A DNA stretch of 37,442 nt from Candidatus Omnitrophota bacterium (GTDB lineage: Bacteria; Omnitrophota; Gorgyraeia; Zapsychrales; JAHFFX01): the NCBI GenBank assembly GCA_023247705.1, contig JAHFFY010000015.1, forward strand, positions 1 through 37,442. The letters are read 5' to 3'. The notes below the pieces were generated by a model, which was given only the letters and a program-made list of their open reading frames with translations, was not told the origin of the DNA and made no database searches. Below are positions 6,025-35,238 of the stretch, one piece after another (the first letter of the stretch is position 1; the number at the start of each line of letters is the position of its first letter). A program made the translations under genes and the position numbers.

Positions 6025-6495
6025 ATGGATGCGCCGCGCATGGATGATGAATTGAGAAAAGCCCGGAATTCCGCTTTTCAGTTTTTGAAAACGCGTAACC
6101 GCAGTGAAAAAGAAACGCGGCTGCGGCTGCTTAAAAAAAAGTTCACGGGGGATGTGGTCGAACAAACGATCCAATATTTAAAAAGCGTTCAATTGCTCGA
6201 TGACCGGCAGTTTGCCCGGGACTGGATTCAGATGCGCCGACGCAAACCGTTTGGCGCGCGCAGGATCCTTTTTGAGTTGAGAGAAAAGGGCATTGCCTCG
6301 GAGATTATCAAAGAGGAAATCGAACAATCGACAACAGATTATTCGGAAGTGGATGCGGTGATCAGCTTGGCCCAAAAATGTCTGCAGAAATATCAACAAT
6401 TGGATCAACCAACGGCGCTGCGCCGCCTGGCCGGCTATCTGAGCCGTCGTGGTTTTAACAACGAAACAATCGAGAAGGTTATCAATCATCTATGA
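6025..6495 (+). CDS. recX: regulatory protein RecX
   Basis: The 156-residue helical-repeat protein fits RecX, which binds RecA filaments and limits RecA activity. Typical features are ARNSAFQFLKTRNRSEKETRLRL near the start and VVEQTIQYLKSVQLLDDRQFARDWIQ, followed by KPFGARRILFELREKGI. The ATG at 6025 is chosen because family similarity begins just after it. A longer frame starting at 5974 would run back into the protease gene. The stop overlaps the alaS start as ATGA (6492-6495), which indicates translational coupling. recX often sits beside recA; here the protease gene and a terminator separate them. Confidence 0.88.
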   Translation: MDAPRMDDELRKARNSAFQFLKTRNRSEKETRLRLLKKKFTGDVVEQTIQYLKSVQLLDDRQFARDWIQMRRRKPFGARRILFELREKGIASEIIKEEIEQSTTDYSEVDAVISLAQKCLQKYQQLDQPTALRRLAGYLSRRGFNNETIEKVINHL

Positions 6496-9239
6496 CCGCT
6501 AATGAGATCAGAAAAAAGTTTTTAGAATTCTTTGCCTCCAAAGGCCACACCGTTGTGCGCAGCGCTTCCCTGGTCCCTCCGGAAAAAGAGGATGAAACGG
6601 TTTTGTTCACCACCGCTGGGATGCAGCAGTTTAAGCGCCAGTTCCTGGGTCAAATTGATGGGTATACCCGCGCGACCACGTCCCAAAAGTGTTTGCGCAC
6701 CGATGATCTGGACTGTGTCGGTAAGACCGCGTTTCATCATACATTCTTTGAGATGCTGGGGAATTTTTCATTCGGTGATTACTTTAAGAAAGAAGCGATC
6801 CATTGGGCCTGGGAATTTTTGACCAAGGACATGGCTCTTCCCGTTGAAAAACTTTGGGTCTCGGTTTATAAAGAGGACAGCGAAGCCGAAAAAATTTGGC
6901 TCAACGATATCAAAATCCCCGCAAATAGACTGGTGAGACTCGGAGATAAAAGTAATTTCTGGCCGTCGGAAGCCAAAGAAAATGGTCCCAACGGTCCCTG
7001 CGGACCTTGCTCGGAAATATTTTTTGATTACGGTGTCAATCCCAATTGCCCCAAAAAAGAAAAATGCGACCCGGATTGCAGCTGCGGGCGGTTTTCGGAA
7101 GTCTGGAATCTGGTCTTCACCCAATTCAACCGTAAAGACGGCGGCATTTTAGAGCCGTTGCCGGCCAAGAATATCGACACCGGGATGGGCTTGGAGCGTC
7201 TGGTGGCGGTTGTGCAGGGAAAGAAAAGTAATTATGAGACGGATTTGTTCGAATCTATTTTCAAAGCGATAAATAAGGAAATTGTCGGAATCAGAGGAGC
7301 AGGCCCTTCAACCACCTCAAAAAATATCATAGCCGATCATATTCGAGCAATAGTGTTCGGAATTGCAGATGGAGTTATTCCTTCAAATGAAGGCCGCGGA
7401 TATGTTGTGAGAAAATTAATCGTTGAGATTTCAGACATCGTTGTATTTATCGGTATGACAAAATCTGTGATTTATAAGCTCGTGCCTTCAGTAGCGCAAG
7501 CAATGGGAGAAGCTTATCCGGAAATTTCTGAGAAAGCACAAGAAATCTCAAAGATAATTCAAAGGGTAGAACAGAATTATATTGATGTCCGAAGCTTAAA
7601 GATTCCAGAGTTTGGAAAACTGGTAAGAGAAATTAATCAATCTGCGCTCTCTCCGCTAGAAAAATATAAGAAATATGGGGAGCTTATGTTTTTATTTAAA
7701 GATACCCATGGATTAAATTACAGAAGTATGTTCAATATAATAGAAGATTTTTTACCTAAAAATTATCAACAAGAAGGAGATATTGTTAAAGATTCATTTG
7801 ATAGCAAAATGAATGAACAGAAGCAACGTTCTAGATCAAGCAGCAAAATGACCGGCGACGTCTTTGCCGATGCCGAATTGAATTTGAATGTCCCGAAAAC
7901 AAAGTTCACTGGCTATGAGTCGAAGTTATCTATAGATGATGTTGAAGGAGTAGAAAAAACAAAGTTTACTGGCCATGATACAGGCTCATCTCAATCGAAT
8001 GTTATAAAAATTTTTAGAAATAACAAAGAAGTTGAAAGTGCCATTGTGGGGGATGATATTAAAGTTGTCCTGAACGAAACTCCATTTTACGCTGAGTCAG
8101 GTGGTCAAGTTGCTGATATTGGAGAGATTTGGAAGGGTGATATGTTAAACCCAGATGCTCTTTTAACTATAACCGCTACTCAAAAAATTTCTGATGTTTT
8201 TATTCATAGTGGGAAAGTAGAAAAAGGCTCTTTCAAAGCTGATGATTCAGTAATAACTCAGATCAATACTGATCGCAGAATTGCTATTATGCGTAATCAT
8301 ACGGCCACACATCTGCTTCAAGCTGCTTTAAGGATAGTTTTAGGGGCACATGTGCAGCAACAAGGATCTTTGGTCCGCCCGGAGTACCTACGCTTCGATT
8401 TTACGCATCATCAATCGATTCCTAAATCATTACTTCAAAGGATTGAGGCTTTAATTAATTTATGGATAAGACGGTGTGACGAAGTTAAGAAAGAAGAAAT
8501 GTCGCTGTCTGAGGCAAAGAGAAAGGGTGCGTTAGCATTTTTTGCTGAGAAATATGGTGAAAGAGTCCGAGTTGTTGAGATTGATGGCTATTCAAAAGAA
8601 TTTTGTGGGGGTACTCATTTAGATCGTACGGGTGAAATTGGTTTGTTTAAGATCATTAATGAAAGCGCTGTTGCTCAAGGGATCCGCCGAATTGAAGCGG
8701 TAACAGGGACGTATTCCATCAAATTAATTAAAGAACAAGAAGATCAATTAGAAAAAATTGCACAAATAGTTAAATCTTCTTTCTCAGAAGTCGTTGAACG
8801 CGTGGACAGCCAAACGAAACGCCTTAAAGAATTGGAAAAGGAAGTCGAGTCCCTTCGCTTTGAAGAAATCAAGAATTCCGTCGCGACTTTGATCCAGAAC
8901 GCCCAGACGATTAAAGAGAGTAAAATTATTTCGACTTCTTTTAAGGAGGTTGACGCGGTGATCTTGCGCAAGGTTTCCGATTTGATTAAACAGAAAGCCC
9001 AATCTGCGGTCGCGATTTTGGCATCGTCGTATCAGGGCAGCGCTTTTATTTTGATCGCGGTCACGGATGACTTGGTCAAGAAAGGTGTTAAAGCCAACGA
9101 CCTGATCAAAGTCCTCGCGCCGTTGATCGGCGGGACCGGCGGCGGACGCCCGGAATTAGCGCAAGCGGGAAGCAAAGAAATTCAAAAAATCGAAAGCGCC
9201 GTTCAGCAGGCCAAACAACTGATTGCCGAAAAGATTTAA
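6492..9239 (+). CDS. alaS: alanyl-tRNA synthetase
   Basis: AlaRS (915 residues) charges tRNA-Ala and clears misacylated products. The class II core has LFTTAGMQQF and FHHTFFEMLGNFSFGDYF, a cysteine cluster at about residues 193-208 (CPKKEKCDPDCSCG, probably Zn-binding) and DTGMGLER. The editing domain has His603-xxx-His607 (HTATH) and Cys705-GGT-His709. A coiled coil and the C-Ala domain (GGTGGGRPELAQAG) follow. From about 7240 to 8770 base composition and codon use are clearly AT-richer than either flank. There the usual GRGYVLRRIIRRAVRHG reads GRGYVVRKLIVEISDIV, and other tRNA-binding helices are unusual. KTKFTG occurs twice, 20 codons apart. The frame is intact. Confidence 0.93.
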   Translation: MTANEIRKKFLEFFASKGHTVVRSASLVPPEKEDETVLFTTAGMQQFKRQFLGQIDGYTRATTSQKCLRTDDLDCVGKTAFHHTFFEMLGNFSFGDYFKKEAIHWAWEFLTKDMALPVEKLWVSVYKEDSEAEKIWLNDIKIPANRLVRLGDKSNFWPSEAKENGPNGPCGPCSEIFFDYGVNPNCPKKEKCDPDCSCGRFSEVWNLVFTQFNRKDGGILEPLPAKNIDTGMGLERLVAVVQGKKSNYETDLFESIFKAINKEIVGIRGAGPSTTSKNIIADHIRAIVFGIADGVIPSNEGRGYVVRKLIVEISDIVVFIGMTKSVIYKLVPSVAQAMGEAYPEISEKAQEISKIIQRVEQNYIDVRSLKIPEFGKLVREINQSALSPLEKYKKYGELMFLFKDTHGLNYRSMFNIIEDFLPKNYQQEGDIVKDSFDSKMNEQKQRSRSSSKMTGDVFADAELNLNVPKTKFTGYESKLSIDDVEGVEKTKFTGHDTGSSQSNVIKIFRNNKEVESAIVGDDIKVVLNETPFYAESGGQVADIGEIWKGDMLNPDALLTITATQKISDVFIHSGKVEKGSFKADDSVITQINTDRRIAIMRNHTATHLLQAALRIVLGAHVQQQGSLVRPEYLRFDFTHHQSIPKSLLQRIEALINLWIRRCDEVKKEEMSLSEAKRKGALAFFAEKYGERVRVVEIDGYSKEFCGGTHLDRTGEIGLFKIINESAVAQGIRRIEAVTGTYSIKLIKEQEDQLEKIAQIVKSSFSEVVERVDSQTKRLKELEKEVESLRFEEIKNSVATLIQNAQTIKESKIISTSFKEVDAVILRKVSDLIKQKAQSAVAILASSYQGSAFILIAVTDDLVKKGVKANDLIKVLAPLIGGTGGGRPELAQAGSKEIQKIESAVQQAKQLIAEKI
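7896..7978 (+). repeat. direct repeat inside alaS
   Basis: Positions 7896-7918 and 7956-7978 match at 21 of 23 bases and are offset by 60 bp, so the repeat is in frame. It encodes KTKFTG twice, once followed by YES and once by HDT. AlaRS proteins normally have a single KxxFxGY-like element at the junction before the editing domain. The copies lie near a small patch of host-like composition inside the AT-rich part of alaS. Confidence 0.6.
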
Positions 9240-18202: not shown

Positions 18203-20209
18203 ATGTTTAAATCGGTTGAGTTGCTTGTTTCACAGATCATTGATCCTGAAGAAATTCGCTCCAACCTGGTACACTTAGGGTATAAAAAGGTCAAAAGCGT
18301 TTTTGACGTGGGAGATTTTGCTTTGCGGGGAGAAATCCTCGATATCTTCCCGGCGCATTACGATTGCCCCATCCGGATCACCCTCCATCACGATCAGATC
18401 GAATCAATCGACAGCATTAACCTTAAAACCGGAAAACCGATTTGGGAACATCGGTGTATCATCATCCTGCCGGTTCAGATTTCCACCACCACACCCTTTT
18501 CAGCGGACATCCCGATCAATACCTTCGTTGATATCAAGAAGGGTGATTATATCGTACATCATCAGCACGGGATTGGCCGGTTTTTAGGGATTACGGAATT
18601 GCTTAAAGAATTTTCTCCGACCTCGCCGCTTGAAATCGAACGGAACAAGACGCGTTTCGAAAACAAACAAAAGCCGAACAAAAAAGAAAAGAAAAAGCAT
18701 TCCGCCCATTTGGTCGTTGAATATGAAGGGGGAGATAAATTATATATCCCGCGTCATGATATCCACCTCGTCCAGAAATATGTCGGCTTCACCAAAAAAT
18801 CTCCGAAGCTAAATAAATTAGGATCGAAACGCTGGATGGGAACATGTTTATCCATCCAAAGACGCATCCAGCAAATGGCCGCGGAACTGTTGCACACCCA
18901 GGCCGTGCGTGCAAGCTTGACGGGTCATGCATTTTCCAAAGACACCGAATGGCAGCAGCAGTTCGAACGATTATTTCCTTTCCCAGAAACGCCGGACCAG
19001 CTCAAAACAACAGCTGAGGTCAAATCGGACATGGAATCACCTCAGCCCATGGACCGTCTTTTATGTGGTGATGTCGGTTATGGAAAAACAGAAGTGGCGA
19101 TGCGGGCGGTGTTCAAGGCGGTGATGGACAACAAGCAGGTGGCCATCCTTGTGCCAACGACGATTTTGGCGGAACAGCATTTTTATAATTTTCAAAAGCG
19201 GCTCACTTCTTTTCCTGTCAGGGTGGCGATGCTCAGCCGTTTTCGCACGCCCAAAGAACAAAAGGCGACGATTCGGGGATTGGCCGATGGAAGTGTTGAT
19301 ATTGTGATTGGAACCCATAGGCTCTTGTCCAAAGATCTGAAGTTTAAAGATATTGGCCTTTTGGTGATTGATGAGGAACAGCGCTTTGGTGTCAAAGCCA
19401 AGGAAAAATTAAAACGGTTGCGCGTTTTGATGGATGTCCTGACCTTAACCGCGACACCCATTCCGCGGACGTTATATATGGCCTTGACCGGTGCCCGTGA
19501 CATGTCGGTCATTTCAACTCCTCCTCAGGACAGGGTTCCGGTTGAAACGCAGATGATTTCATTTGATGAAGAGATGATCAAGAAGGCGATCGAGTATGAA
19601 TTAAAGCGAAAAGGACAGGTTTTTTTTCTTCATAATAAAGTGGACGACATTGATAAAATTGCTCATACTGTTAAGCGTTTAGTCCCGCACGCCAGGGTCG
19701 CGATTGGTCATGGACAAATGCCAGCGAGACTTTTGGAAGAAATTATGCTAAAATTTTTTTCTAATGAAGTCGATGTTTTGGTCTGTACGACGATTGTTGA
19801 GTCGGGAATCGATATCCCAAACGCAAACACGTTGATTGTCAACCGCGCCGACCGTTTTGGTCTGGCCGACTTGCATCAATTGCGCGGCAGGGTCGGTCGA
19901 TTCAAAGAAAAGGCCTTTGCGTATTTCATTGTCCCACCGAAAGAAAGGCTATCGACCCAATCGCAGGCAAGACTGAAGGCCCTGGAAAAAAATAGCGATT
20001 TGGGTGCTGGATTTCAAATTGCGTTTGAGGATTTGCAGATCAGAGGCGCCGGAAATCTGTTAGGTCAGGAACAGCATGGGTATATCACCGCGATCGGTTT
20101 TGATCTGTATTGCCGTTTACTGAAAGAGTCCATTGAACATTTGAAAAATATCAAATTCGTACCCCATTCCCAAAACACAGGTGAAGCGTATGCGTCAGCA
20201 ACAAAATAA
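18203..20209 (+). CDS. short Mfd-like transcription-repair coupling factor
   Basis: This 668-residue protein is a reduced Mfd; full Mfd has about 1150 residues. Residues 1-100 match a short piece of the N-terminal region (GDFALRGEILDIFPAH). An RNA-polymerase interaction domain follows at about 113-200 (KGDYIVHHQHGIGRFLG... EYEGGDKLYIP) with a lysine-rich insert. A complete RecG-type translocase comes next, with Walker A GDVGYGKTE near residue 288, DEEQ near 388, TATPIPRTLYMAL and QLRGRVGR. Most of the UvrB-like, UvrA-binding region and the whole C-terminal autoinhibitory D7 domain are missing. No remnant lies upstream, because secDF ends 3 nt before, and surA-like overlaps the 3' end. It probably moves stalled RNA polymerase. 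Confidence 0.88.
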   Translation: MFKSVELLVSQIIDPEEIRSNLVHLGYKKVKSVFDVGDFALRGEILDIFPAHYDCPIRITLHHDQIESIDSINLKTGKPIWEHRCIIILPVQISTTTPFSADIPINTFVDIKKGDYIVHHQHGIGRFLGITELLKEFSPTSPLEIERNKTRFENKQKPNKKEKKKHSAHLVVEYEGGDKLYIPRHDIHLVQKYVGFTKKSPKLNKLGSKRWMGTCLSIQRRIQQMAAELLHTQAVRASLTGHAFSKDTEWQQQFERLFPFPETPDQLKTTAEVKSDMESPQPMDRLLCGDVGYGKTEVAMRAVFKAVMDNKQVAILVPTTILAEQHFYNFQKRLTSFPVRVAMLSRFRTPKEQKATIRGLADGSVDIVIGTHRLLSKDLKFKDIGLLVIDEEQRFGVKAKEKLKRLRVLMDVLTLTATPIPRTLYMALTGARDMSVISTPPQDRVPVETQMISFDEEMIKKAIEYELKRKGQVFFLHNKVDDIDKIAHTVKRLVPHARVAIGHGQMPARLLEEIMLKFFSNEVDVLVCTTIVESGIDIPNANTLIVNRADRFGLADLHQLRGRVGRFKEKAFAYFIVPPKERLSTQSQARLKALEKNSDLGAGFQIAFEDLQIRGAGNLLGQEQHGYITAIGFDLYCRLLKESIEHLKNIKFVPHSQNTGEAYASATK

Positions 20210-29119: not shown

Positions 29120-30574
29120 ATGATTTTTGAAACAATTATTGGTTTAGAAGTCCACTTGCAGTTAAATACAAACACAAAAATTTTCTGTGGCTGCGCCAAT
29201 CTTTTTGGAAAAGAATCGAATACCCTGGTGTGCCCGGTTTGTCTTGGACTCCCGGGGACTTTGCCGGTTCTAAATCAGAAGGCCTTGTCTTCCGCCATAA
29301 AAATCGCCTTGGCGCTGAATTGCCAGGTCAATCCGTATATCAAATTTGATCGCAAAAATTATTATTACCCTGATTTGCCCAAAGGGTATCAGATTTCCCA
29401 ATATGATCTTCCCGTGGCGAGTCATGGCTGGGTTGAAATTCCAGACAAGCAAGCAGGTGCGCCTTCCGACCATCGGGTCAAACGGATCAATATTAAACGC
29501 GCACATCTTGAAGAGGACGCGGGTAAATCCATTCACGATCAAACCCTCAACGCCAGCTTGGTTGATTATAACCGCACCGGCACGCCGTTGATGGAAATTG
29601 TCAGCGACCCGGATTTGCGCTGCGCCCAAGAGGCCTATGATTATCTCACGACCCTGAAACTGATTTTGCAATACCTGAATGTCTCGGACTGCGACATGGA
29701 AAAAGGGAGTCTGCGTTGCGACGCTAATATTTCGATCCGGCCCTTGGGCGAACAGAAGTTCGGTGTTAAAGCGGAAGTGAAAAACATGAATTCCTTTAAA
29801 GCGGTGAAAATGGCGTTGGAGTTTGAAGAAAACCGTCAGAGACAATTGCTTTTATCGAACCAGCGGGTGGTTCAGGAAACGCGTTTATGGAATGAAGAAA
29901 AAGGCATGACGTTTCCGATGCGCAGTAAAGAAGAGGCGCATGATTATCGTTATTTCCCCGAGCCGGATTTGGTGCCCTTTATGGTGCGGGAATCCATGAT
30001 CGAGGAGATCAGGGCGTCTTTGCCGGAACTGCCGCACGCGAAATTGGAACGCTTTTTGAAAGAATACCAAATCTCGGAATACGACGCGCAGATCCTGATC
30101 CAGGATCCGACGTTGTCCGGTTTTTTTGAAGAGTGCGTCAAGCGAACATCGATGATCAAAAAAGTTTGCAACTGGTTGATCGGGCCTGTCCTTCAGGAAC
30201 TTAATTTACGCAAAGTGAATATCCAGCAGATTGGTTTGCAGACCCAAGAATTAGTGAACCTGATCGACAAGGTCGAACAGGGTGTTTTAAGCAACCTCGT
30301 GGCCAAAGATGTTTTTAAATTAATGCTGGATACTGGCAAAACTGTTGATACAATTGTTGCTGAGCAAGGACTGACGCAGGTTTCGGATGACAGCGTATTG
30401 GAAAAGATCGTTGAGGAAATTATTAATGATAACGAAAAAGTTATTGCGGAAATAAAACAGGGAAAGACATCCGCAATGGGATTTCTCGTAGGACAAGCGA
30501 TGAAAAAAACACAAGGCAAAGCCAATCCCAAAAAGATTGGAGATTTGATTAAAAGGAGGTTTGAGAATGGCTAG
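29120..30574 (+). CDS. gatB: Asp-tRNA(Asn)/Glu-tRNA(Gln) amidotransferase subunit B
   Basis: GatB (484 residues) phosphorylates and amidates the mischarged Glu- or Asp-tRNA. Typical runs are FETIIGLEVHLQLNTNTKIFCGC, CPVCLGLPGTLPVLN, KNYYYPDLPKGYQISQYDLP, DYNRTGTPLMEIVSDPD and EVKNMNSFKAV. The Zn-binding cysteines near residues 28-42 are present. The C-terminal YqeY-like tail domain ends MGFLVGQAMKKTQGKANPKKI. The ctpA start at 30567 lies inside its last codons. The GatCAB set indicates indirect synthesis of Gln-tRNA and/or Asn-tRNA. Confidence 0.97.
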   Translation: MIFETIIGLEVHLQLNTNTKIFCGCANLFGKESNTLVCPVCLGLPGTLPVLNQKALSSAIKIALALNCQVNPYIKFDRKNYYYPDLPKGYQISQYDLPVASHGWVEIPDKQAGAPSDHRVKRINIKRAHLEEDAGKSIHDQTLNASLVDYNRTGTPLMEIVSDPDLRCAQEAYDYLTTLKLILQYLNVSDCDMEKGSLRCDANISIRPLGEQKFGVKAEVKNMNSFKAVKMALEFEENRQRQLLLSNQRVVQETRLWNEEKGMTFPMRSKEEAHDYRYFPEPDLVPFMVRESMIEEIRASLPELPHAKLERFLKEYQISEYDAQILIQDPTLSGFFEECVKRTSMIKKVCNWLIGPVLQELNLRKVNIQQIGLQTQELVNLIDKVEQGVLSNLVAKDVFKLMLDTGKTVDTIVAEQGLTQVSDDSVLEKIVEEIINDNEKVIAEIKQGKTSAMGFLVGQAMKKTQGKANPKKIGDLIKRRFENG

Positions 30575-31901
30575 AAAGGCGTTCATTATTATAACATCGG
30601 TGGTTGTTTTTTTTCTGATCACGCGATTGGCAATTTCACAGATCACCAAAGAGACGAAGGACGATCTCTATTCCCAGATAGAACTTTTTAGCTATGCGTT
30701 AACCACCATTCAATCCGAATATGTCGATGAACAAAAGCCCAAGGATTTGATTTACGGATCTTTGAAAGGGATGCTTTCTTCGCTTGATCCGCATAGCCAA
30801 TTTTTGACACCGGAAGATTACGCAGAACTGAAAACTGAAACTCAAGGAAAATTCGGAGGGTTAGGCATTGAAATATCGATCCGCGACGGATTATTGACGG
30901 TTGTAACACCACTGGAAGATACCCCGGCTTGGAAAGTCGGTGTCATGGCTGGCGACCGCATTGTGAAAATCGGCGATGAAGTCACCAAAGACATGAGTTT
31001 AAACGATGCGGTGAAGAAACTCCGTGGCAAACCGGGAACAGACGTCAAGATTACAGTTTTAAGAGAATCGGAATTTAAAATTCATGATTTTACGATCACC
31101 AGAGAAATCATTCATGTTCAGGATATCAAAGATCCCCAGATCTTGGAAGACCACATCGGCTATTTGCGATTAGCTGAATTTCGCGAGGATTCGCATAAAG
31201 AATTTGAGAAAGCCTTATACAAATTAAAAGCGGACGGCGCCGACAGTTTGATCTTGGATCTGCGCAATAATCCGGGTGGGCTGTTAAATGTCGCCATCAA
31301 GATTTCTGAATTGTTTTTGCCGGAAGGCCAACTGATTGTTTCCACCAAAGGACGAAGGGCTTCTCAGAATATGGAGACGAAATCGACGAATGCGACGATG
31401 GATTTTGTTCACTGGCCGATGGTTGTTTTGATTAATGAGGGGAGTGCATCCGGAAGCGAAATTTTGGCCGGGGCATTGAAAGATAACCAGCGCGCCATCA
31501 TTGTCGGAGAGAAATCGTTTGGTAAGGGATCGGTCCAATCGGTGATTTCGCTTCCCGATGGATCGGGATTAAGATTAACCACAAGTAAATATTTCACTCC
31601 GTCGGGAGTTTGTATTCATGGCATCGGGATCATGCCGGATGTTGAGGTGAAACGGGTTTATCCACCGGAGGAGACAGAGGATAAAGATAAAAAGAATCTC
31701 GATAAAATTTTCGATGATGTTCAAATGCATGACGCCAAAGATCCGCAATCCGTGATTCAGACGCAAAAGGATTCGGAATCAAAAAAGCGGCTCCAGCAGG
31801 ATAACCAGGTCCAGGCCGCCATCAGCGTCATCAAAGGGATTCGAGTTTTTCAGAAATTTGGGCAGCCTGTCCAGAGTGTAGCGAATGGCTCCAAAACGTA
31901 A
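30567..31901 (+). CDS. ctpA: carboxy-terminal processing protease CtpA
   Basis: The 444-residue S41 peptidase cleaves the C-terminal ends of envelope proteins. It has an N-terminal membrane or signal helix (residues 5-22) and SLDPHSQFLTPEDY. A PDZ domain lies at about 85-165 (GGLGIEISIRDGLLTVVTPLEDTPA). The protease core has NNPGGLL, Ser295 in EGSASGSEI and Lys320 in GEKSFGKGSVQ, 25 residues apart as in the catalytic dyad of the family. The ATG at 30567 is preferred over TTG at 30561 because AAAAGGAGG at 30551-30559 is well spaced. It overlaps gatB by 8 nt and the next gene by 17 nt. Confidence 0.95.
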   Translation: MARKAFIIITSVVVFFLITRLAISQITKETKDDLYSQIELFSYALTTIQSEYVDEQKPKDLIYGSLKGMLSSLDPHSQFLTPEDYAELKTETQGKFGGLGIEISIRDGLLTVVTPLEDTPAWKVGVMAGDRIVKIGDEVTKDMSLNDAVKKLRGKPGTDVKITVLRESEFKIHDFTITREIIHVQDIKDPQILEDHIGYLRLAEFREDSHKEFEKALYKLKADGADSLILDLRNNPGGLLNVAIKISELFLPEGQLIVSTKGRRASQNMETKSTNATMDFVHWPMVVLINEGSASGSEILAGALKDNQRAIIVGEKSFGKGSVQSVISLPDGSGLRLTTSKYFTPSGVCIHGIGIMPDVEVKRVYPPEETEDKDKKNLDKIFDDVQMHDAKDPQSVIQTQKDSESKKRLQQDNQVQAAISVIKGIRVFQKFGQPVQSVANGSKT

Positions 31902-32862
31902 GGAAAAAGTCGATTTAAAAAACCTCGTAATCATTGCTTTATTGATTACGGTCGTCATTGAGACTTCTTTGTTACTCAATCCTGATTTTAAAAAAGGATT
32001 GAGTAAACCTAAAGCTGTCGAAAAAAGTTCAACCTCATCAGAGAGAATTACCAAGAAAAAAGAACCTTCAGAACACAAGTCTCCCCCGATCGTTTTACCG
32101 GCTGCCCTGAAGTCTGAGCCAACGATCGTTCCTGCCTCTAAATCTCAGATGAAGCGACCGGTGGCGGTCACAAACAATGATCAGATAAAAAAACCGTTTT
32201 TAGGACGTATTGCGATCATTCTCGATGACTGGGGATATCATCAGGAATCCTGTGACGCATTGGTGTTCATCAAGAGTCCTCTGGCGGTCGCTGTTCTTCC
32301 GGGTTTAGAACATTCTCGCGATATCGCTGAATGCGCTTACCGTAACGGCAAGGAAGTGATATTGCATCTGCCTTTAGAACCGCATCGCTATACCGAGACT
32401 TATCCCGACAATTATATTATCAAAACATCGATGAACGATGCCAAGATTGTCCGTATGGTGGATCATTCTCTGGACAGTGTGCCATATCTGGTAGGTGTTA
32501 ATAATCATATGGGGTCTAAGGCGACAGAGGATAAACGCGTTATGTCGATTGTCTTTAATCGTTTAAAACAGAGAGGATTATTTTTTGTGGATAGCTTTGT
32601 TACCAGCAAGACGATTTGTCGTGATCTCGCGCGGAAAATGAAAGTCGGCTTTGCACGCAGGGATGTGTTTTTAGACAATAAAAATGAACGCGTTTATATC
32701 GAAGAACAATTCGCTATCCTCGCGAAAGAAGCGCACAAAAAAGGTTTCGCCATTGCGATTGGTCACGACCGTCCGTTAACTTTGCAGATTGTTAAAGAGC
32801 AAGTTGAGCTTCTGGAACGACAAGGTTTTAAGATAGTCAAAATAACCGACCTTCTCCAATAA
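31885..32862 (+). CDS. divergent polysaccharide deacetylase (YibQ/DUF610)
   Basis: The 325-residue protein has an N-terminal membrane anchor (about residues 12-32), a Lys/Pro/Ser-rich linker to about residue 105, and a divergent NodB-like domain. Motifs match the YibQ family: IAIILDDWGYH, VAVLPGLEHS, VILHLPLEPH, GVNNHMGS, FFVDSFVTS and GHDRPLTL. The family is paired with peptidases of the EnvC/CtpA type in many genomes and is thought to act on envelope polysaccharide. Here it overlaps ctpA by 17 nt. Enzymatic activity is not established for the family as far as I know. Confidence 0.88.
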   Translation: MAPKRKEKVDLKNLVIIALLITVVIETSLLLNPDFKKGLSKPKAVEKSSTSSERITKKKEPSEHKSPPIVLPAALKSEPTIVPASKSQMKRPVAVTNNDQIKKPFLGRIAIILDDWGYHQESCDALVFIKSPLAVAVLPGLEHSRDIAECAYRNGKEVILHLPLEPHRYTETYPDNYIIKTSMNDAKIVRMVDHSLDSVPYLVGVNNHMGSKATEDKRVMSIVFNRLKQRGLFFVDSFVTSKTICRDLARKMKVGFARRDVFLDNKNERVYIEEQFAILAKEAHKKGFAIAIGHDRPLTLQIVKEQVELLERQGFKIVKITDLLQ

Positions 32863-32879
32863 AGTGAAAGTGAGTTTTG

Positions 32880-33854
32880 ATGAAAGTTTTGGGCATTGAA
32901 ACATCCTGCGATGAGACAGCCGCCAGTGTCGTGGAAGACGGCCGATATATCCTTTCGCAAGTTATATCTTCGAGCTTAAAAGATCACCAGCGTTATGGAG
33001 GAATCATCCCGGAGATCGCTTCCCGTCGGCAGATTGAATTAATTAATCCGGTTATCGAAGATGCTTTGAAACAAGCGCAGCTGACGATTGAGGCCATTGA
33101 TGCCATCAGTGTCACACGCTCACCGGGGTTGATCGGTTCCCTTTTGGTGGGGATTTCTTTCGCCCGGGCTTTATCCTTGGCCTTGGCGAAACCGTTAGCG
33201 GAAGTGGATCATATCAAAGCGCACTTATATGCTAATTTTTTGCAATTTGGTCGCAGCGCAGAGAGTTCAATCGGTTTACCGAAATTACCGGCGATTGGAC
33301 TTGTTGTTTCGGGAGGGCATTCGAGTTTATTTTATGTGAAAGGGTTTAACGAATTTCGCCTTCTGGGGCAAACACGGGATGACGCAGTCGGAGAAGCGTA
33401 TGACAAGGTTGCCAGGATTTTAGGATTAGGTTATCCGGGAGGGCCGGTGATCGATCGTTTGGCCAAACAACAAAAGGAAGATCGAGAAATTCAATTCAGA
33501 TGTGCTGATTTGAATGACAGCTTTGATTTCAGTTTTAGTGGAATTAAAACAGCGGTGTTGTATCATGTCCGTCAGCGGCAAAAGGAAGGGTGTGCGATCC
33601 GCGTTGATCAGATCGCTTACGCGTTTCAGAAAAGTGTTGTCGCTTCTTTAGTTGATCAATCGTTCATGGCCTGCAGAAAAAAGAAAATAAAGACCTTATT
33701 GATCGGAGGCGGAGTTGCCGCGAATTCCTTCCTGCGGGAAAGGCTATTCAGAAGAGCTCAAGAAGAAGACATCCAGGTTTTTACCCCACCGATATCCCTG
33801 TGCACGGACAATGCCTCGATGATCGCCGGATTAGGTTATCATCGTTTAAGTTAA
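32880..33854 (+). CDS. tsaD: tRNA N6-adenosine threonylcarbamoyltransferase TsaD
   Basis: TsaD (324 residues) installs the threonylcarbamoyl group to make t6A37 in tRNAs that read ANN codons, working with TsaB, TsaC and TsaE. The start MKVLGIETSCDETAASVV is diagnostic. Metal ligands are His111 and His115 (DHIKAHLYANF). PAIGLVVSGGHSSLF and LLIGGGVAANSFLRE mark the ASKHA ATP-binding fold, and LCTDNASMIA supplies the last ligand. The ATG at 32880 is used rather than TTG at 32877. It follows the deacetylase after 17 nt. The locus then changes to a new transcription unit. Confidence 0.96.
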   Translation: MKVLGIETSCDETAASVVEDGRYILSQVISSSLKDHQRYGGIIPEIASRRQIELINPVIEDALKQAQLTIEAIDAISVTRSPGLIGSLLVGISFARALSLALAKPLAEVDHIKAHLYANFLQFGRSAESSIGLPKLPAIGLVVSGGHSSLFYVKGFNEFRLLGQTRDDAVGEAYDKVARILGLGYPGGPVIDRLAKQQKEDREIQFRCADLNDSFDFSFSGIKTAVLYHVRQRQKEGCAIRVDQIAYAFQKSVVASLVDQSFMACRKKKIKTLLIGGGVAANSFLRERLFRRAQEEDIQVFTPPISLCTDNASMIAGLGYHRLS

Positions 33855-33932: not shown

Positions 33933-34004
33933 AAACTGACATTAAAATTTATGATTGCCAAATTTATAAATTTTTAAAGGGCAACATCTGAACAGGAGGG
34001 GGAA

Positions 34005-34523
34005 ATGGGTTTAAGAGATCGAAAAGATTTTGTGAAAGAGCAGGAAGAAAAAAGCATTGAGATCAATGCCCAGATGCAGGGGACGTTGACCTTCAAAGAC
34101 CCGGTTAATTTAAAAATTAATGGCAAATTCAGCGGAGGTTTGGAAACACGAGGAACGTTATCGATCGGGAGCGCAGCCTTTGTCGAAGCCAATATTGTCG
34201 GCGAAAATATTGTTGTTGCCGGAAAAGTCCGAGGAGACATCGTGGCGAAGACCATGCTGGTGCTCATGCCCACAGCTGTTTTAAGCGGCAATATTACGAC
34301 CCCCAAATTGAACATTGTCGAAGGCGCCATCTTCCAGGGAAATTGTCAAATGATCGAGGATTATTTCGATGTGGATGGATTAGCTAAATATCTGGAGATC
34401 GATCCTCCAGCGATTTTAGAATTGGTCAATTCAGGAAAAATTCCCGCGATCAAAAACGGGGACGATTGGAGTTTTGAACGTAATAAAATCGATAACTGGG
34501 CTGCTTCTGGAAGAATTAAATGA
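34005..34523 (+). CDS. bactofilin fused to a C-terminal excisionase-type helix-turn-helix
   Basis: The 172-residue protein has two parts. Residues about 18-118 are a bactofilin (polymer-forming cytoskeletal) domain: the right-handed beta-helix pattern is clear in INAQMQGTLTFKDPVNLKING, VEANIVGENIVVAGKVRGDI and LSGNITTPKLNIVEGAIFQG. Residues about 121-170 match the excisionase/MerR-like HTH_17 fold: DVDGLAKYLEIDPPAILELV, a SGKIPAIKNGDDW wing, then FERNKIDNWAAS. Bactofilins form filaments on membranes, whereas HTH_17 domains bind DNA. The combination suggests a filament that contacts DNA; this is inference. Start is supported by AGGAGG at 33994-33999. It overlaps the next gene by 4 nt (ATGA). 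Confidence 0.88.
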   Translation: MGLRDRKDFVKEQEEKSIEINAQMQGTLTFKDPVNLKINGKFSGGLETRGTLSIGSAAFVEANIVGENIVVAGKVRGDIVAKTMLVLMPTAVLSGNITTPKLNIVEGAIFQGNCQMIEDYFDVDGLAKYLEIDPPAILELVNSGKIPAIKNGDDWSFERNKIDNWAASGRIK

Positions 34524-34822
34524 CGACGAACCAATACATCTCGGTCCGGGAAACCGCGCAGATTCTTGGCGTTAGCGAAAAAAAAGTCATGGATTTGGTC
34601 GAAGAGAAAAAGATTCAAGCTTACCGGATCGCTGATCAGTTTCTACGTTTGAAGAAATCAGAAGTCCTGGATATCAGAAATAGCGGTAAAATTGTCGCCG
34701 AATCAACCCCGGAGATTTACACGGCTCAAGAAAAGATTCTGGATTTTTTTTACTTTAATGATTTTTATATTGTGTCTCTCATTATTATTCTTCTGTTGCT
34801 TTATGTCGTTTTTGCCATGTGA
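34520..34822 (+). CDS. tail-anchored excisionase-type helix-turn-helix protein
   Basis: The 100-residue protein begins with an HTH_17-type DNA-binding domain at about residues 5-55 (YISVRETAQILGVSEKKVMDLV, wing KKIQAYRIADQFLRLKKSEV). A short linker follows, then a single hydrophobic helix at about 82-99 that ends the protein (FYIVSLIIILLLLYVVFAM). This places the DNA-binding domain on the cytoplasmic face of the membrane. Its HTH resembles the one at the end of the preceding bactofilin, and the two genes overlap by 4 nt, so a shared job is likely. No attachment site, integrase or phage gene is nearby, which argues against a true excisionase. Confidence 0.8.
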   Translation: MTTNQYISVRETAQILGVSEKKVMDLVEEKKIQAYRIADQFLRLKKSEVLDIRNSGKIVAESTPEIYTAQEKILDFFYFNDFYIVSLIIILLLLYVVFAM

Positions 34823-34875
34823 CGCAATTTTGTCTCACCCGAATAACAACGCATTTAAATAAAATTAATTTCAAT

Positions 34876-35238
34876 ATGTACAAAATAATTATTCTTTCCT
34901 ATTGCTTCGTGGCAATCTTGACGATGAGTGGATGCGCCGATTTTAGAAATAAAATCTCAGCAGACAAAAAGAAAAAAGAGGAGATTAGCGCTTTAAAAAA
35001 GAAAAATTATGAAACTTTAATAAAATCCCTGGCGAATAATTCGTTATTGAAAGGAGCGCAAACCGAGAAGGTCAAGGAGATGTTTGGAGAACCAGATGAT
35101 ATCCTCCTATCAGGTTCCGCGGTTGGAAAATTTGAGGTCTGGACTTATGAGAAAGTTCAAGAAAAAAATTACACCCCCGATCGGCAACCCATCCGGTTGT
35201 ATTTTGACGGCAATAAATTAATTAATTGGGAATATTGA
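34876..35238 (+). CDS. small BamE/SmpA-like lipoprotein
   Basis: From the ATG at 34876, 120 residues begin with a lipoprotein signal: hydrophobic core IIILSYCFVAIL and lipobox TMSGC with Cys20. After a lysine/glutamate-rich stretch (about 22-45), residues 55-118 read like the SmpA/BamE fold: GAQTEKVKEMFGEPDDILLSG, EVWTYEK, then PIRLYFDGNKLINWEY. BamE helps the outer-membrane beta-barrel machine; other members of this fold have other roles. A GTG at 34819 overlapping the previous stop would give a longer form whose lipobox is too far in. It is probably the third gene of the bactofilin unit. Confidence 0.75.
   Translation: MYKIIILSYCFVAILTMSGCADFRNKISADKKKKEEISALKKKNYETLIKSLANNSLLKGAQTEKVKEMFGEPDDILLSGSAVGKFEVWTYEKVQEKNYTPDRQPIRLYFDGNKLINWEY

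Follow-up and report, generated by a model that had tools for sequence, protein, structure and literature searches.

A bactofilin with a folded winged helix-turn-helix tail and a predicted tail-anchored HTH neighbour in Omnitrophota

Introduction

Bactofilins are typically membrane-associated polymers that form independently of nucleotides and recruit membrane clients via the cytoplasmic parts of these proteins (PMC12448750, PMC10945521). The consensus of their membrane-targeting peptide is MFSKKKK, and PbpC is able to stand in for this peptide (PMC12448750). Bactofilin C-terminal tails bind partners in several species, for example in Myxococcus and Asticcacaulis. How bactofilins recruit their partners is nevertheless poorly understood. 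Two membrane clients contact the bactofilin from the cytoplasm: in the pair of bactofilin and LmdC, an M23 peptidase, the membrane protein is encoded by an overlapping gene, and PbpC is likewise a membrane protein. In the MreB system, RodZ carries an HTH-type domain on a membrane protein and links the cytoskeletal filament to the membrane.

Here we describe a bactofilin from Omnitrophota, an almost entirely uncultured phylum of whose cell organisation little is known. It was found in a stretch of DNA of 37,442 nucleotides (the window) from an Omnitrophota MAG, whose relatives carry the label Candidatus Omnitrophota. With the canonical bactofilins (Caulobacter BacA, Thermus) the protein shares the beta-helix core, the polymerisation position and, in most members, a hydrophobic and basic N-terminal tail. 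However, the published flanks of canonical bactofilins are short and mostly disordered, whereas the C-terminal flank in Omnitrophota is a folded winged helix-turn-helix (wHTH) domain across the phylum. Judged by titles and abstracts, none of the papers found in a literature search that leaves subscription journals largely uncovered describes a bactofilin-HTH fusion or an Omnitrophota bactofilin. What is new on this otherwise known family is the folded tail together with a constant neighbour, a predicted tail-anchored protein that we call HTH-TM; a folded, partner-type domain fixed in the phylum beside a homologous membrane protein offers a recruitment system that is well defined and can be tested.

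Results

A bactofilin core and a wHTH tail in one protein

The bactofilin-wHTH fusion is real (Table 1). Bactofilin (PF04519) is matched by residues 18-115 (E 2.7e-22; 79.3 bits against a cut-off of 27.9) and HTH_17 (PF12728) by residues 120-169 (E 2e-6; 28.4 bits against a cut-off of 27). The HTH_17 score of the window's protein alone is marginal, but the call is not due to chance, since both Pfam families were matched in 27 of 27 aligned relatives, with a best HTH_17 E-value of 7.9e-13. The polymerisation-interface phenylalanine of Caulobacter BacA (F130) and Thermus bactofilin (F105) aligns with F110 of the fusion; among 184 family members this position is F in 100, L in 68, I in 11 and M in 5, so that judged by alignment the polymerisation residue is retained as phenylalanine or another large hydrophobic. 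A hydrophobic residue at position 2-3 plus at least two K/R, as in a membrane-targeting peptide, begins the N-terminal tail of 132 of the 184 members; in 51 the tail is basic and has no early hydrophobic residue. A promoter scan gave no site directly 5' of the fusion gene and no usable excess.

Table 1. Features of the bactofilin-wHTH locus, with positions in the window
Feature	Position	Strand	Basis or remark
Conserved 5' context: S41 peptidase, divergent polysaccharide deacetylase, tsaD	30561..33854	+	
AGGAGG ribosome-binding site of the bactofilin-HTH gene	33994..33999	+	sequence; 5 bases 5' of ATG
Bactofilin-wHTH fusion protein, 172 aa	34005..34523	+	ORF starts ATG
N-terminal tail MGLRDRKDF...	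34005..34052	+	hydrophobic residue and basic cluster; resembles bactofilin membrane-targeting peptide
Bactofilin beta-helix core, PF04519	34056..34349	+	Pfam, alignment, fold match
C-terminal wHTH (HTH_17), net acidic	34362..34511	+	Pfam, model, fold match, charge
HTH-TM protein, 100 aa: N-terminal HTH_17, C-terminal membrane helix (predicted tail-anchored)	34520..34822	+	
HTH_17 domain of HTH-TM; invariant wing arginine R43	34535..34675	+	
Juxtamembrane motif (consensus DFFYFNDFY) and membrane helix of HTH-TM	34724..34816	+	

The AlphaFold2 model of the fusion, built on a 27-sequence alignment, had an overall pLDDT of 82, with a beta-helix core (about 90) and a helix-turn-helix-wing-helix tail at residues 123-167 (about 72-82). 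In Foldseek the core matched Caulobacter BacA (2n3d) and the Thermus bactofilin filament (6rib), with target TM of 0.83 and 0.89, and the tail matched BldC, RdfS, Pukovnik Xis and RacA, with which it has the wHTH fold in common (target-normalised TM mostly 0.61-0.81); E-values were weak for core and tail alike, at 0.007 and above. Among the wHTH fold matches were also CbpM bound to a J-domain (3ucs) and DafA with Hsp70-Hsp40 (9dvi). A PDB search with the isolated wHTH as query returned no match. By the testable features of sequence and predicted fold, the Omnitrophota protein is a bactofilin. The first-pass annotation of this DNA, which had placed a bactofilin domain at about residues 18-118 and an HTH_17/excisionase-type domain at about 121-170 and had called for structure prediction of both, is thus borne out as to the two domains and their folds.

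Within the tail, L130 and F157 are invariant and W165, P147 and Y129 almost so, and E131, D133, E139 and E158 are acidic in most family members. Conservation is somewhat lower in the HTH (0.45) than in the bactofilin core (0.56).

The fusion is fixed across Omnitrophota

That the fusion might recur in related genomes had been left as a check; it proved to be phylum-wide and not a one-off. Most genomes of the order have the full-length fusion, with 45-75% identity, and it extends to other classes. A bactofilin was detected in 239 of 285 Omnitrophota genomes, mostly as one copy each, and a profile reached the HTH tail in 185 of 186 non-redundant genes, a set picked by a profile of the fused protein in which rare unfused copies would therefore be under-counted. 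The sole gene not reaching the HTH is cut short by a stretch of N in its assembly. One unfused second copy of 132 aa, lacking the HTH, was noticed in genome G274 (locus L101), and four bactofilin matches are listed for genome G045.

Outside Omnitrophota, a scan of the genome collection with short peptide patterns, which distant cases could escape, found no full-length fusion; in the same collection the bactofilins of Treponema match the core only. A plasmid search likewise gave no full-length match to the fusion.

An overlapping gene encodes an HTH protein with a membrane helix

The operon position given in the first-pass annotation was correct but incomplete, for the overlapping next gene, with its HTH_17 domain and membrane helix, had been missed. 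The start of HTH-TM overlaps the fusion stop by 4 bases (ATGA). Its product consists of an HTH_17 domain (residues 6-52), a variable linker, a juxtamembrane segment and, as its last element, a membrane helix; C-terminal helices lie at 69-79 and 81-99, with a topology predicted from sequence. The juxtamembrane segment DFFYFNDFY is the best conserved stretch, and the fold matches include Xis and DNA-bound RacA and BldC.

HTH-TM lies 3' of 184 of the 186 fusion genes, on the same strand and within a few hundred bases; the remaining two have it as well when an assembly gap in locus L202 and a longer ORF in locus L104 are taken into account. A 271-aa frame in L202 that looked like a Rosetta-stone fusion of both genes was discarded, as it crosses a block of N. 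HTH-TM was detected in 252 of the 285 genomes. By comparison of the lists, about 238 genomes have both genes, 14 have HTH-TM only and about 32 have neither; a bactofilin without HTH-TM was seen in one genome (G084, a weak match). In the four loci examined among the HTH-TM-only genomes the gene keeps its usual chromosomal position. Three of these, close relatives (L152-L154), have an unchanged neighbourhood except that the bactofilin is absent, and in the fourth (L156) tsaD stands directly 5' of HTH-TM. The linker of HTH-TM is longer in L152-L154. Since 14 genomes keep HTH-TM without a detectable bactofilin, the protein must have a further role or at least one further partner.

The bactofilin wHTH is acidic

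We aligned 83 bactofilin wHTHs, 82 HTH-TM wHTHs, 29 standalone Omnitrophota HTH_17 proteins and BldC. The residue positions of the BldC sequence agree with those in PMC5859096. DNA-binding MerR-like and HTH_17 proteins have a basic DNA-facing surface, whereas the bactofilin wHTH is acidic in comparison with BldC and the standalone HTH_17 proteins: its net charge averages -2.9 (range -7 to 0, never positive), against +7.3 (4 to 9) in the standalone proteins and +6 in BldC, and for the recognition helix the means are -1.1 and, in the standalone proteins, +4.3. BldC positions 22, 24 and 50, mostly R/K in the standalone proteins, are occupied by E/D in 86-96% of the bactofilin tails. In these tails K150 and R159 remain basic, and mostly also K156. 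The domain of HTH-TM is intermediate (+2.7). The recognition helix of this domain lacks basic character (mean charge -0.67, with E20 and D/E25 frequent); in its wing, R43 is present in 184 of 184 proteins and K45 and K46 are basic.

Mutation of Arg30 abolishes DNA binding by BldC (PMC5859096), and this position is usually E or D in the bactofilin wHTH; however, the missing arginine was set aside as proof of lost DNA binding, as the standalone HTH_17 proteins also carry D there. These standalone proteins (L123-L148; matches near 1500) are widespread and strongly basic, with the consensus LMTIDEVADYLRVKKRTVYDWVKKGKIPAIKTVGQWRFKKEKIDAWL, and are close relatives of the bactofilin tail. Since, after its own orthologues, the fusion matches them best, at 30-42% identity, the likely history of the tail is a fusion followed by the loss of basic residues.

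Gene neighbourhood and ParABS

The wider gene order, gatC-gatA-gatB, S41 peptidase, divergent polysaccharide deacetylase, tsaD, MgtC, bactofilin-HTH and HTH-TM, is conserved with local gains and losses; in the window's own locus the MgtC gene is absent from that place. This is a neighbourhood of envelope and housekeeping genes, and its conserved part contains no par gene. ParB_N had no match in the host genome, which is 91% complete, so that incompleteness may account for this; ParB was found in 16 of 19 genomes searched. No parS-like site was detected in the host genome with up to one mismatch allowed.

Covariation of the two wHTHs

Mean-field DCA on 184 pairs of the two proteins raised only the HTH-by-HTH block, a level reached by 0 of 40 near-neighbour-swap controls. 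With mutual information on the same 184 pairs the block did not stand out (50 of 300 controls scored at least as high), and the negative correlation of charge between the two wHTHs is no more than relatedness yields by itself.

Discussion

A folded tail without an obvious DNA-binding surface, together with an overlapping gene for a more basic wHTH on a membrane protein, leads us to favour docking of the filament to the membrane. We tentatively propose a membrane-associated bactofilin scaffold peculiar to Omnitrophota, in which the wHTH is a docking domain tied to the membrane, probably via HTH-TM. Filaments would form through the beta-helix core, and the N-terminal peptide would contact the membrane from its inner side. 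The acidic wHTH domains, arrayed along the filament, could then dock on the wHTH of tail-anchored HTH-TM, with its basic wing (R43, K45, K46), and HTH-TM might either hold the filament at the membrane or pass it to envelope-growth proteins. The tail itself may have come from the standalone HTH_17 protein of the same phylum, and would have lost DNA binding and gained protein docking. Docking by a wHTH has a precedent, since MerR-type wHTHs occur in protein complexes: CbpM and DafA have a MerR-like wHTH in complexes of chaperones, although these are not cytoskeletal and have no filament domain. For contact between the two wHTHs, DCA is suggestive and mutual information is not; the 14 genomes that have HTH-TM but no detectable bactofilin speak against the model.

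Among the bactofilin clients, LmdC resembles HTH-TM in the overlap of its gene with that of the bactofilin; however, LmdC and PbpC differ from HTH-TM, which has no periplasmic enzyme domain, ends at its membrane helix and carries a wHTH. RodZ is similar in that an HTH domain, predicted to be cytoplasmic in HTH-TM, is followed by one membrane helix, but the domain of HTH-TM is HTH_17 and not HTH_25, and no residues and no periplasmic domain follow the membrane helix. HTH-TM may therefore work like RodZ without being RodZ. The systems differ further in that MreB is an actin-like filament and RodZ has a Cro/C1-type HTH, whereas the Omnitrophota pair consists of a bactofilin and a membrane protein that both carry an HTH of the MerR/HTH_17 type. 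With somewhat more reserve than for the docking scaffold, we suggest that the two-wHTH module converts DNA-binding-type domains to filament-membrane coupling and might be a bactofilin counterpart of RodZ-MreB across the phylum. If true, this would clearly exemplify the conversion of a DNA-binding fold into a cytoskeletal connector.

The strongest rival, which we still consider unlikely, is that HTH-TM is itself a membrane-tethered DNA binder that the bactofilin wHTH regulates or clusters, giving an indirect link between nucleoid and membrane. Its net positive charge with the invariant R43 and the basic K45 and K46, its persistence in the genomes that have no detectable bactofilin and its matches to Xis and to DNA-bound RacA and BldC would all agree with this, but an arginine in the wing is a general feature of HTH_17 proteins, the recognition helix is slightly acidic on average, and the best conserved part of the protein is the juxtamembrane motif and not that helix. 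Somewhat less probable is self-association of the bactofilin wHTH, which would bundle or space filaments like the stacking of BldC and RdfS: these proteins stack head to tail via wing-HTH contacts, and domains closely spaced along a filament would readily touch sideways. Such a role leaves the constant HTH-TM neighbour unexplained, however; the stacking of BldC depends on DNA, and Arg22, which belongs to its stacking salt bridge, is replaced by E in 85% of the family.

The original proposal in the first-pass annotation, that the wHTH contacts DNA directly, with the filament serving as a tether for a chromosomal locus, appears less probable again. It is true that BldC bound to DNA and RacA, a chromosome-anchoring protein, are fold matches of the tail, that a few basic residues (K150, R159 and mostly K156) persist, and that bactofilins organise ParABS in Myxococcus (PMC5703909). 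Yet the basic recognition surface on which this proposal depends is largely absent at the sequence level, with the charge reversed relative to the standalone HTH_17 proteins; the gene context is of the envelope type, and the suggested connection to ParABS found no ParB match or parS-like site in the host genome, nor, unlike for BacNOP-type bactofilins associated with ParABS, a par gene in the conserved neighbourhood. The DNA-binding reading of the bactofilin wHTH is weakened by its charge; the tail might still bind DNA weakly, but it is more likely a membrane docking site than a chromosome anchor. That it is a degenerate leftover without function seems very improbable: the HTH is indeed less conserved than the core, but the tail is kept in every full-length gene examined across the phylum, and its invariant and nearly invariant residues as well as its acidic surface positions are conserved. 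Finally, each of the two wHTHs may bind something else.

Other features of the window

Directly after HTH-TM, a small lipoprotein-like protein (34819-35238) shows weak similarity to DUF3862 and BamE; among the loci compared, only 4 have its gene. Mfd is usually about 1150 aa long, and the Mfd-like transcription-repair helicase at 18203-20209 (668 aa) apparently misses, by eye, most of the N-terminal UvrB-like part. The alanyl-tRNA synthetase at 6492-9239 carries a tandem-looking KTKFTGYE...KTKFTGHD stretch.
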